NCBI GenBank assembly: GCA_018698075.1
Contig: JABINT010000031.1
Location: forward strand, 1 to 49,965
Length of the DNA stretch: 49,965 nucleotides
Direction of reading: 5' to 3'
From: Acidiferrobacteraceae bacterium
Lineage (GTDB): Bacteria; Pseudomonadota; Gammaproteobacteria; Arenicellales; UBA868
Shown: positions 33,974 to 38,285 of the stretch, one piece after another
How the letters are laid out: each line of letters begins with the position of its first letter
Numbering within the stretch: the first letter of the stretch is position 1
The notes under the pieces: model-generated
The model's input: the letters and a program-made list of their open reading frames with translations, nothing else
Databases searched by the model: none
Told to the model about the DNA's origin: nothing
Made by a program: the position numbers and the translations under genes

Positions 33974-34014
33974 GAGTGATTGAGCGCCGATGGGCGTTTA
34001 TTTGCGAGTTTTAC

Positions 34015-35724
34015 GTGACACACTTCAATTTTTCCACGACTGGCCTGCTATGTACCTTATTGGCATTGTCCGGTTGCGTCGGCGTTGCGCCGGCACCCAA
34101 TAGCGCCAGTGCGCAAGAGCAGCACCCGCTGGTGGTGGCAGGTCTTTCCCAGGATCTGGTCTTTGAATACCTGCTTGGCGATGTAGCGGCCCGTCGCGGC
34201 GATCCGGTCACTGCGGCACAAGCTATGGCCCGCGCAGCAATACTTTCGGGCAACGCGCGGATTACGGTACGTGCTTTTGCCTTGGCCATAGAAGTGCGCG
34301 AGTTTGAGCGGGCCCTGGAACTCAGCGAACTCCTGGTATCGATTACCCCGGAGGATCCAAGGGCCCTGGCTATGCGGCTACAGGCCTTGATTATGCTCGA
34401 CCGTGGGCAGGCTGTGTTCGATGCGTTGGTAGAGTTGATCGACACGATGCCCGAGAAAACGGCTGTCCTGTTGGAGCATATTGTGCAGATCCTGGGGCAG
34501 CAGGCGGATCCGGGTCGTTGGCTGGGTTTGATGCAGCGCATCGCCACTCATTACCATGAACTTGATTCGGCACAATGGGCAGCCGCCTGGCTTGGCTACC
34601 GCGTTGGTGATGAGGAGGCAGCACAAGCGGCGCTTGACCGGGCCATGGAGTTGACACCTGGGTGGGAGGAAGCTGCGCTGCTGAAGTTTTCATACCTTCG
34701 CGAGCACGGTGACCGCGAGCGAGTAAGTGCTTACGCCAACGAGTATCTTGATGCCTATGCTGACCGGCCTCGGTTTCGTCTGACGTATGCCCGGTTGCTG
34801 GCACAATGGAACGAGAATCGTGCGGCGCTTGCACAGTTCGACAAACTGCTCGAATCTGACCCAGACAGTATCGATGCCCTGTACGCAGCCGGCGCACTCA
34901 ACCTCGACCGCGGTGATCTGGCTCGTGCCCGTGAGCATTTTGAGCATGTATTGGCGCTTTTCCCTAACGAGGATCGCGCCCGACTTTATCTTGGTCGAAT
35001 CGCCAGTGAACAGGGCGACTACGATGTCGCGCTGACATTATTGCGAGAGGTGGTTTCACGGGAGTTGTATTTCGATGCGCAAATGCGCGTTGGTTTTGTC
35101 CTGGCAGATGCCGGGCGTATCGATGAGGCCTTGGAACATCTGGCTGATGTCACACCAAAGTCACGCGATGAGCAGGTGCGGGTGTACCTGGCACGCGAAC
35201 AGGTGCTGCGCGACAGCGGCCAGCCGGAGCAGGCGCTGAAGCTGTTGGATGCGGCGCTGGTTGATCTGCCGGATGACCTCGATCTGCTCTATGCCCGCGG
35301 GCTCGTGACCGCGATGCTGGATCAGGTGGTCGAACACGAGCGCGATATGCGCCGGCTCATCGAGTTGGATCCCCAGAATGCGCATGCCTACAACGCGTTG
35401 GGCTATACACTGGCCGACAAGACCGAGCGCTTCGAAGAAGCTCTGGCACTTATAGAAAAGGCGCTTGTGCTGTTACCGGGTGACCCCTATGTTCTCGATA
35501 GCCTGGGGTGGGTGCATTACCGGCGGGGCAACCTAAAGCTCGCGCTTGAATACCTGACTCTGGCAATGGATCAGCAGCCCGATGCCGAGATTGCTGCACA
35601 TTTGGGTGAGGTCTTGTGGCATCTGGGCGACAAGGCAGAGGCGATCTTGGCCTGGGAAGACGGCAAGAGTAATGATTCCGACAATCCGGTACTAATTGAG
35701 ACGCTGCGGAAATTCGGCCAGTGA
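34015..35724 (+). CDS. TPR-repeat lipoprotein upstream of lolB
   Basis: The ORF track starts at GTG 33976; GTG 34015 is preferred because it gives a short lipoprotein signal (THFNFSTTGLLCTLLALSGC) and lies after the likely promoter. The mature protein carries many tetratricopeptide repeats (for example IDALYAAGALNLDRGDLARAREHF; NAHAYNALGYTLADKTERFEEAL). A TPR protein is regularly found beside lolB in gammaproteobacteria, and a role in outer-membrane lipoprotein or envelope assembly is inferred from position. The stop overlaps lolB (GTGA). Confidence 0.88.
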   Translation: MTHFNFSTTGLLCTLLALSGCVGVAPAPNSASAQEQHPLVVAGLSQDLVFEYLLGDVAARRGDPVTAAQAMARAAILSGNARITVRAFALAIEVREFERALELSELLVSITPEDPRALAMRLQALIMLDRGQAVFDALVELIDTMPEKTAVLLEHIVQILGQQADPGRWLGLMQRIATHYHELDSAQWAAAWLGYRVGDEEAAQAALDRAMELTPGWEEAALLKFSYLREHGDRERVSAYANEYLDAYADRPRFRLTYARLLAQWNENRAALAQFDKLLESDPDSIDALYAAGALNLDRGDLARAREHFEHVLALFPNEDRARLYLGRIASEQGDYDVALTLLREVVSRELYFDAQMRVGFVLADAGRIDEALEHLADVTPKSRDEQVRVYLAREQVLRDSGQPEQALKLLDAALVDLPDDLDLLYARGLVTAMLDQVVEHERDMRRLIELDPQNAHAYNALGYTLADKTERFEEALALIEKALVLLPGDPYVLDSLGWVHYRRGNLKLALEYLTLAMDQQPDAEIAAHLGEVLWHLGDKAEAILAWEDGKSNDSDNPVLIETLRKFGQ

Positions 35725-36395
35725 TCCGCGGCGGATGTGCCTTGCTTGCAGCAATACTGCTAAGTGGTGGCTGCGCCAGGATACCGCCTGCGGCATTAGC
35801 GCCTAGCGCAGCCGATGCGCTTTGGGCGGCACGCCAGGAACAGCTTAATAATCTGCGGCAGTGGAATCTGCGTGGACGTGTCGCCATACGCACCTCGGAG
35901 TCGGGCGCCAGTGCACACCTACGTTGGGAGCGTAAAGATCAGCAGAGCCGGATTGATCTTTTTGGTGCTTTCGGCGGTGGCAAAGCCCGTTTGTGGGTTG
36001 ACGAAAACGGTGCCCGGTTGCGTGACCACCAGGGCCAGGAATTTGAGGCAGACAGTGCCACCCAAGTCCTTGCTGACGGCACCGGCTGGCATATCCCCCT
36101 TGATGAGCTGGGCTACTGGATTCGGGGGCTACCCGCTCCAAGTGAGGTCCGGGCGATAGAAACTGATGCTCGCGGGGCTTTGATTTCACTCAGCCAACTG
36201 GGGTGGGATATCACCTATTCTGAGTACGCGGTGTTCGACGAAAAGGAGCTACCCCGTAAGATCCGAATGGTGGCCTGGCCTGATACCGTGAAAAACTTCT
36301 CGACCCACGCGGGGCTGATAGGGGATACCCTGATTGTAAAAATACTGATCGAACACTGGAGCGAGCGGGCTACCGTCAAAGAGATGGAGCAATGA
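35721..36395 (+). CDS. lolB: outer-membrane lipoprotein receptor LolB
   Basis: 224 residues. The lipobox ILLSGGC is followed by the LolB fold: LNNLRQWNLRGRVAIRT, ARLWVDENGARL and YWIRGLPAPS, the hydrophobic-cavity strands. It accepts lipoproteins from LolA and inserts them in the outer membrane. It starts at a GTG overlapping the TPR gene and overlaps ispE by four bases. Confidence 0.93.
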   Translation: MIRGGCALLAAILLSGGCARIPPAALAPSAADALWAARQEQLNNLRQWNLRGRVAIRTSESGASAHLRWERKDQQSRIDLFGAFGGGKARLWVDENGARLRDHQGQEFEADSATQVLADGTGWHIPLDELGYWIRGLPAPSEVRAIETDARGALISLSQLGWDITYSEYAVFDEKELPRKIRMVAWPDTVKNFSTHAGLIGDTLIVKILIEHWSERATVKEMEQ

Positions 36396-37225
36396 GCAGT
36401 TGGCTGGCACCCGCAAAACTTAATCTGTTTTTACACGTAGTTGGCCAGCGTGACGATGGACTGCACGAGTTGCAGACGCTCTTTCAGTTGCTCGACTATG
36501 GCGATACGCTGGATTTTGATGCCCGCCGTGACGGTGTGATCCGGCGTCTGGGTGCGCCGCAATTGCCTGATGACGACCTGAGTGTACGCGCAGCGCGCGC
36601 CCTGCAGGCAGCAAGCGGCACTACCCTTGGGGCCGATATTCATCTTACTAAGCGAATCCCTGTTGGGGCGGGTCTCGGTGGTGGGAGCTCTGACGCTGCC
36701 ACCGTGCTTGTCGCGTTGAATCGGATATGGAATACAGGTTTCAGCCGGGCAGAATTGACTCAACTTGGACTGGCGTTAGGGGCGGATGTCCCGTTATTTG
36801 TCGGTGGCTGCTCAGCCTGGGGTGAGGGAGTGGGCGAGCGACTATTGCCAACAATCCTGCCAGAGCAGCAATACTGTGTGATTTGGCCCCAAGTCAGTGT
36901 CTCGACCGGGATTATATTTGCTGATCGCGAATTGACACGAAACAGCCCGCGAATCAGAATACCGGGCCCATTTGAGGGTGATCGGCGCAACGATCTGGAG
37001 CCGGTGGCAAGACGACAGTTTCCTGAGGTAGGGCAGTGCCTGGATTGGCTGGGCAAATTTGGTCCCACCCGAATGTCGGGCAGTGGGTCAGCGGCTTTCG
37101 TGGCAGTGGTTGATAACCACGCTGGCCAGCAGATTCTTGACCAGCTGCCTGCCGTATACAGTGGCCTGGTTGCCCGGGGAATTAACCAGAACCCGGCGTT
37201 TGCCGATGAATCTGATGGGGTGTAG
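36392..37225 (+). CDS. ispE: 4-diphosphocytidyl-2-C-methyl-D-erythritol kinase
   Basis: 277 residues of the GHMP kinase family. The ATP-binding glycine-rich motif PVGAGLGGGSSDAAT is at 90-104; the N-terminus has LAPAKLNLFLHVVGQRDDGLHEL and the C-terminal motif MSGSGSAAF. It is the MEP isoprenoid pathway kinase. Its last codons and stop codon (TAG at 37223-37225) lie inside the following tRNA-Gln gene, an overlap of ten bases. Confidence 0.96.
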   Translation: MSSWLAPAKLNLFLHVVGQRDDGLHELQTLFQLLDYGDTLDFDARRDGVIRRLGAPQLPDDDLSVRAARALQAASGTTLGADIHLTKRIPVGAGLGGGSSDAATVLVALNRIWNTGFSRAELTQLGLALGADVPLFVGGCSAWGEGVGERLLPTILPEQQYCVIWPQVSVSTGIIFADRELTRNSPRIRIPGPFEGDRRNDLEPVARRQFPEVGQCLDWLGKFGPTRMSGSGSAAFVAVVDNHAGQQILDQLPAVYSGLVARGINQNPAFADESDGV

Positions 37226-37290
37226 CCAAGTGGTAAGGCACCGGATTTTGATTCCGGTATTCCCAGGTTCGAATCCTGGCACCCCAGCCA
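37216..37290 (+). tRNA. tRNA-Gln (anticodon TTG), CCA encoded
   Basis: Acceptor stem TGGGGTG pairs with CACCCCA; discriminator G and encoded CCA follow. The anticodon stem CCGGA/TCCGG encloses loop TTTTGAT, giving anticodon TTG, which reads CAA. D loop and T loop (GGTTCGAATCC) are standard. The sequence closely resembles E. coli tRNA-Gln. The 5' ten bases are also the end of ispE. Confidence 0.97.
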
Positions 37291-37334: not shown

Positions 37335-38285
37335 ATGGCAGTTGATGATCTGACATTGTTTACCGGTAACGCCAACCCGGCACTGGCCAGCGAAGTGGCT
37401 GATCGCCTGGGCATTGGCATTGGCCGCGCCCTGGTGAGCACCTTCAGCGACGGTGAGGTTAACGTCGAGATCATGGAAAATGTTCGCGGTGCCGACGTTT
37501 TCGTGATCCAGCCGACCTCTATGCCCGCGAGCAATCACTTAATGGAACTGCTGGTGATGATCGATGCCTTGCGCCGCTCTTCGGCAGAGCGTATCACCGC
37601 GGTAATCCCATATTTTGGCTATGCACGCCAGGATCGTCGACCGCGAACAGCCCGGGTTGCGATCACAGCCAAGCTCGTTGCCGACATGATCGGCATTGCA
37701 GGCGCAGACCGGGTGGTGACCATGGATCTGCACGCGGACCAGATCCAGGGTTTTTTCGATATCCCGGTTGACAATATTTATGCGGCCCCGGTACTTAACG
37801 GTGAGTTGTGGCGTCAGGAGCCCGAAAATCTGATTGTGGTGTCACCAGATGTGGGTGGCGTGGTCCGGGCGCGGGCGATGGCCAAGCAACTTGGCGTTGA
37901 ACTTGCCATCATCGATAAGCGCCGGCCTCGGGCTAACGAGGCCAAGGTCATGCATATCATAGGTTCGGTGGATAATCGCACTTGCGTGTTGATGGACGAT
38001 ATGGTGGATACCGCCAACACCTTGTGTGAGGCGGCCCGGGCGCTGAAGGAGTCCGGCGCGATGCAGGTTAAGGCCTGTTGTACCCATGCGGTGCTTTCCG
38101 GCTCAGCGGTCGAACGTATTGAAGCGTCGGAGCTGGACGAAGTCGTGGTGACCAACTCGATCCCACTGTCAGTCGAGGCAAGTAATTGCGCGAAGATTCG
38201 ACAGATCAGTATTTCCAGTTTGCTGGCTGAATCAATCCGGCGAATAGCCAGTGGTGATTCGGTCAGCTCCCTATTTATGGACTAA
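37335..38285 (+). CDS. prs: ribose-phosphate pyrophosphokinase
   Basis: 316 residues. The PRPP-binding signature [21 protein letters not shown], the catalytic flexible loop ([12 protein letters not shown]), and the ribose-5-phosphate loop ([11 protein letters not shown]) are present. It makes PRPP from ribose-5-phosphate and ATP. It starts 44 bases after tRNA-Gln, in the usual ispE-tRNA-prs-rplY order. Confidence 0.97.

Follow-up and report, generated by a model that had tools for sequence, protein, structure and literature searches.

Overlap of the ispE stop codon with tRNA-Gln(UUG), and a predicted tRNA promoter within the ispE coding sequence, in Gammaproteobacteria

The window analysed here is a stretch of 49,965 nt (contig JABINT010000031.1) from an Acidiferrobacteraceae bacterium, order Arenicellales. 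The contig is part of a 2.67-Mb assembly of 203 contigs, estimated to be 89% complete, and among the named genomes of the collection its closest relative is L062, an Arenicellales MAG with an IspE identity of 98%. The locus of interest carries the following genes and features.

35721..36395, + strand: lolB, the upstream gene, whose TGA overlaps the ispE start (ATGA); TIGR00548, E=1.7e-32, and the ORF list
36392..37225, + strand: ispE CDS, 277 aa; TIGR00154, E=1.9e-69, above cut-off
between 37215 and 37216, + strand: expected RNase P cleavage point, placed by the tRNA 5' end from ARAGORN and Rfam
37216..37290, + strand: tRNA-Gln(UUG), CCA encoded; ARAGORN (TTG anticodon) and Rfam RF00005, 71.1 bits
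37223..37225, + strand: ispE stop codon TAG, which is U8, A9 and G10 of the tRNA
37335..38285, + strand: prs, 44 nt after the tRNA; NF002320, E=4.6e-146, above cut-off

Within 33976-36395 there are 4-nt overlaps between an upstream TPR-protein gene and lolB and between lolB and ispE, an arrangement that suggests a translationally coupled operon. At the other end of the locus, a terminator scan of the 44-nt spacer between the tRNA and prs found no terminator-like site, and prs is probably carried on the same transcript as tRNA-Gln.

Ten nucleotides, 37216-37225, are common to ispE and tRNA-Gln on the same strand. The ispE gene ends GAT GGG GTG TAG; the T of GAT is tRNA nt 1, and the codons GGG (37217-19), GTG (37220-22) and TAG (37223-25) are tRNA nt 2-10, so that the original prediction of a stop codon lying inside the tRNA is exact to the base. 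The overlap would be only apparent if IspE ended earlier or if the tRNA were a pseudogene, and the family is known from MAG data only, which lends this a little weight. Such an artefact is nevertheless highly improbable: the tRNA gene is intact, retaining every stem as well as the CCA, and no second UUG tRNA-Gln was found in the window genome, while the ispE frame holds no stop earlier than the TAG at 37223-37225. A search of a phage collection with the ispE-tRNA junction gave no match.

Comparison of the ispE-tRNA junction among relatives places the same stop at tRNA nt 8-10 in 23 of the 24 genomes of the window's family, with IspE identity down to 57%; one of the 23 (L051), in which the contig ends within the tRNA, was scored by eye. 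The frame and distance of the ispE tail are kept, free of any indel, in all 23, which likewise speaks against an artefact. Since the stop is held at one tRNA position over this range of identity, the overlap in the family is more than chance. The sole exception, L088, lost the overlap through a single CAG to TAG change upstream of the tRNA: it reads GCG ATA TAG CCT CAA ATT GGG GTG TAG, compared with GCG GTG CAG CCT GCA GTT GGG GTG TAG in L051 of the same genus, and the old reading frame is still visible beyond the new stop.

Any message carrying the full ispE ORF must include at least tRNA nt 1-10. Because of these shared nucleotides no terminator can separate ispE from tRNA-Gln, and separate, non-overlapping transcripts, which would have spoken against the original prediction, are impossible for complete ispE messages. 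From the sequence, cleavage at 37215/37216 would strip GGG GTG TAG and leave a nonstop end (...CTG GA). The geometry thus agrees with the earlier proposal that RNase P would remove the ispE stop codon from a transcript that it processes; however, making the tRNA does not have to use up ispE mRNA. When folded locally with its ispE leader, the RNA forms the acceptor, anticodon and T stems.

Messages truncated in this way would require ribosome rescue. tmRNA and SmpB were not found in the window MAG (89% complete); both are present, and adjacent, in relatives. The gap in the window MAG is therefore probably due to incompleteness and rescue is available, and the idea that the family is without tmRNA and unable to rescue nonstop ispE messages was rejected. 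In genome G435 (a MAG 92% complete with 5% contamination) there are two tmRNA matches above cut-off, at C88:98936-99291 and C40:2963-3294, possibly a sign of contamination.

Within ispE, a consensus scan detects a sigma70-type sequence, TTGACA-17-CAGAAT, at 36932-36960, which together with its discriminator occupies ispE codons 181-192. Its elements are given below.

36932..36937, + strand: -35 element TTGACA, a scan match at ispE codons Leu181-Thr182
36955..36960, + strand: -10 element CAGAAT after a 17-nt spacer, class-wide xAxAAT
36961..36967, + strand: GC-rich discriminator; the commonest sequences in the class are ACGCGAC, ACGCGCT and AGCCGAC

The site has 10 of 12 consensus matches, lies about 255 nt upstream of tRNA-Gln and is the only promoter match on the + strand in the region, with a transcription start predicted at about 36966-36970. 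The consensus scan by itself is not significant, giving 2 sites on both strands against 1.3 expected. When the predicted short transcript (334 nt) is folded as a whole, the cloverleaf is disrupted in the minimum-energy structure and mostly retained in the centroid. GC-rich discriminators go with stringently controlled tRNA and rRNA promoters.

The argument for a promoter comes from conservation beyond what the protein requires, as measured at synonymous sites in both the family and the class. In a codon alignment of 21 ispE genes of the family, a peak of synonymous conservation (z=3.9) spans codons 180-189 and coincides with the promoter, and the -35 TTGACA is invariant in 21/21. Across the class, TTGACA stands at the homologous Leu-Thr codons in 174 of 196 aligned loci, followed by -10 variants that include CACAAT, CAAAAT, CAGAAT, GAAAAT and GACAAT. 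Codon choice was then compared with the expectation from each gene's own codon usage in 154 loci from other families in which tRNA-Gln lies downstream: leucine is TTG in 148/154 loci (33 expected), threonine is ACA in 145/154 (35 expected) and isoleucine is ATA in 114/132 (26 expected). The -35 codons 181 and 182 reach synonymous z values of 23.1 and 21.7 and the -10 codons 189 and 190 values of 16.7 and 19.7, the four highest of the whole gene, against a gene median of 1.9. Discriminator codons 191-192 follow with 11.2 and 8.6, and spacer codons 183-186 are unconstrained (-0.9 to 2.0). These z values assume independent loci, which the loci are not, and the argument rests on effect size over some 180 families.

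A different account of the same letters would have the overlap neutral, with a single operon transcript, and the TTGACA-17-CAGAAT sequence serving as something else, e.g. a translation pause at the codon level or a regulator site. Bias of comparable kind does occur elsewhere in ispE: codons 99, 10 and 100 are also strongly biased class-wide (z 10-14; AGT/TCC serine, CTC leucine), and high values of the statistic are thus not confined to promoters. No other place in the gene, however, shows the promoter pattern. Conservation falls precisely on a -35 TTGACA, an xAxAAT -10 at a distance of 17 nt and a GC-rich discriminator; the spacer is left free, and the motif is missing where the tRNA is missing. 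We regard this pure by-product account as quite improbable.

The link between motif and tRNA was followed over 268 distinct ispE loci of the class, which remained after duplicate and unrelated loci were excluded; each locus was oriented, the ispE frame was walked to its stop and tRNAs were located by ARAGORN. The strict motif is present in 207 of the 243 loci that have tRNA-Gln no more than 400 nt downstream and in 0 of 17 without it, or at most 1 of 18 if L196 is counted, in which the strict motif is present and only 334 nt downstream is visible. The E. coli lolB-ispE-prs region has neither the tRNA-Gln there nor a TTGACA-17-xAxAAT motif in ispE. The -10 element lies 250-567 nt ahead of the tRNA, with a median of 291 nt. 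Among the 36 tRNA-Gln loci without the strict promoter, near forms occur in L072 (TTGAAA...TACAAT), L081 and L135, and none in L133 and L108. The tRNA and the promoter are lost together; with only about 8 tRNA changes on the tree, an independent-pairs sign test of this association is powerless (median p 0.5). The synonymous-site evidence for the promoter is independent of the tRNA-presence comparison. A terminator directly after the tRNA was rejected as a general feature, being found by a strict stem test in only 7 of 238 loci.

Where a tRNA lies within 350 nt after ispE, it is tRNA-Gln(UUG) in 177/177 loci of the first locus set. Most related lineages carry an ispE-tRNA spacer of 5-350 nt (median 25). 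Beyond the window's family, however, the ispE stop falls inside the tRNA in 25 loci from about 23 families. In 7 families it is a TAG at tRNA nt 8-10 (e.g. L010, L110, L114, L125, L136, L262 and L273) and in 13 a TAA at nt 19-21 or 20-22 (e.g. L011, L115, L128, L141, L153, L184, L193, L195, L202, L238, L249, L254 and L266). Three families have other positions, nt 13 in L004, nt 62 in L227 and nt 75 in L272, the last being uncertain as the IspE similarity stops 128 nt short of the tRNA. The deepest convincing overlap is that of L227 (tRNA 2316-2390, oriented), with its stop at tRNA nt 62-64. In L264 the stop codon straddles the tRNA boundary.

These positions follow from the tRNA itself. In TGGGGTGTAGCCAAGTGGTAAGG no frame reaches a stop before nt 8; one frame meets TAG at nt 8-10, the second TAA at nt 19-21, and the third has none. 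As U8-A9-G10 reads TAG, an ispE ORF that loses its own stop in the window's frame would end at tRNA nt 8-10, and the stop position is therefore supplied by the tRNA. Only 2 of about 23 families read deep into the tRNA in the third frame; translation of the whole tRNA, or a long protein tail, may be selected against. Mapped by parsimony on a tree of the aligned IspE core, the overlap changes 23 times. Such repeated gain and loss looks like tolerated drift more than a maintained regulatory switch.

The original prediction, by which translation and tRNA maturation compete, can be read as a regulatory switch: one transcript from which RNase P makes ispE nonstop, with the overlap kept so as to balance the two products. 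That every complete ispE message contains the tRNA 5' end, and that 23 of 24 family genomes hold frame and distance with an indel-free tail, agree with such a switch, and the same hypothesis has been published for selB-selC (PMC8124441). Against it, the conserved internal promoter could offer the tRNA a source other than ispE mRNA, the related lineages mostly keep a spacer, and the overlap is gained and lost often. In addition, we know of no functional link between IspE and tRNA-Gln. A switch is thus unlikely, and the class-conserved promoter together with the frequent turnover of the overlap argues against the predicted competition of tRNA maturation as such with ispE translation.

We consider it likely instead that tRNA-Gln(UUG) is a tenant of the ispE 3' end, with an internal promoter of its own, two transcripts and a 10-nt overlap that is tolerated. 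A long transcript, starting upstream of lolB-ispE, would be translated into IspE; sooner or later RNase P would cut it at 37215/37216, whereupon the last three codons are gone and ribosome rescue is needed. A short transcript would begin near 36967 in ispE, have no ispE start codon, and consist of a leader of about 250 nt followed by tRNA-Gln. Given the class-conserved promoter inside ispE, most tRNA-Gln probably derives from such short transcripts, which are unable to make IspE; supply of the tRNA, and probably expression of prs, would then not hinge on the translation of IspE. This tRNA has a single gene copy in each of the 10 window-family genomes examined, and for this reason its supply can hardly depend on uncut ispE mRNA; an independent internal promoter would resolve the conflict between single-copy tRNA supply and ispE mRNA integrity.

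The overlap itself could arise by loss of a stop codon or spacer beside a tRNA with ready-made stops. It would cost little because the tRNA supply would have its own promoter and the IspE tail is probably dispensable. Solved IspE structures align to the query only through residue 268-269 of 277, leaving the last 8 residues beyond the aligned core, and the IspE of L088 ends several codons ahead of the tRNA; IspE without its last three residues is therefore probably active. Of the two features, the promoter in the coding sequence is the more surprising, the overlap being of a known kind, recurrent and tolerated. On balance we favor a broader picture, held somewhat less firmly, in which a sigma70 promoter of an essential tRNA, older than the diversification of the class, sits in an unrelated metabolic enzyme gene and forces rarer codons (TTG, ACA, ATA) upon it, and in which the two genes have fused end to end in more than 20 families, the tRNA supplying the stop and each processed long transcript becoming nonstop.

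A literature search on ispE/prs/tRNA-Gln and on tRNA-overlapping stops returned nothing on this locus, with only selB-selC being relevant, and the papers searched gave no report of an intragenic ispE promoter, which may yet be listed in supplementary start-site tables. In Alpha- and Gammaproteobacteria, selC is nested in or partly overlaps selB (Mukai 2021, PMC8124441). The selB stop lies inside the selC tRNA in some lineages (nt 46-48 in Dyella and Luteibacter), a new stop upstream has ended the overlap in sister lineages, and RNase P cleavage is proposed, hypothetically, to give nonstop mRNA (PMC8124441). In ispE the ORF likewise runs on the same strand into a complete, intact tRNA and stops within it, and ispE/tRNA-Gln is a new instance of this kind of ORF/tRNA overlap. 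It differs in that ispE encodes a housekeeping isoprenoid kinase, by family a CDP-ME kinase with no tRNA-binding family among the matches listed and no known tRNA partner role, and in that tRNA-Gln is an ordinary tRNA. The window's ispE shares 10 of 75 tRNA nt, unlike the wholly nested alphaproteobacterial selC; nesting in the ispE of other families reaches nt 62-64 in L227 and nt 75 in L272. Further differences are the origin of the overlap in many families and the conserved, predicted tRNA promoter inside the protein gene.

In animal mitochondria gene/tRNA overlaps also occur, e.g. in Armadillidium, where tRNA-Lys lies within cox1 (cited in PMC8124441). There, as here, mRNA and tRNA share nucleotides of one strand and tRNA excision damages the mRNA. 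Mitochondrial transcripts are very long and their stops can be completed by polyadenylation, whereas the ispE locus has a separate, predicted internal promoter and no evident genome compaction. Some bacterial operons mix mRNA and tRNA and are processed by RNase P or RNase E, e.g. E. coli secG-leuU; they resemble this locus in that a single transcript carries a protein gene followed by a tRNA, which RNase P releases, but the coding sequence there ends before the tRNA. E. coli prs has a promoter inside the upstream gene, similar to a promoter in ispE that serves a downstream gene; the E. coli operon differs in the tRNA-Gln and motif that it lacks.

The tRNA U8-A9-G10 and the D-loop UAA are ready-made stops for any gene drifting into a tRNA, a general case that can be tested. 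A promoter hidden in coding sequence would explain the rare-codon conservation in ispE, and recoding ispE would then deprive an essential tRNA of its promoter. Such loci bear on how cells separate mRNA translation from tRNA processing when nucleotides are shared, and these ispE genes would be cut short by any annotation pipeline in which a CDS may not overlap a tRNA.

The tRNA side of the junction also varies in individual loci. Right behind ispE in L019, in the stretch that reaches to about +330 nt from its stop, the 5' half of a tRNA-Gln-like sequence is interrupted by a repeat-like insert; an intact tRNA-Gln follows 251 nt downstream, so that a damaged copy apparently stands next to a functional one. 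In L262 (831-1002, oriented), tRNA-Gln(UUG) and tRNA-Gln(CUG) stand in tandem directly after ispE.
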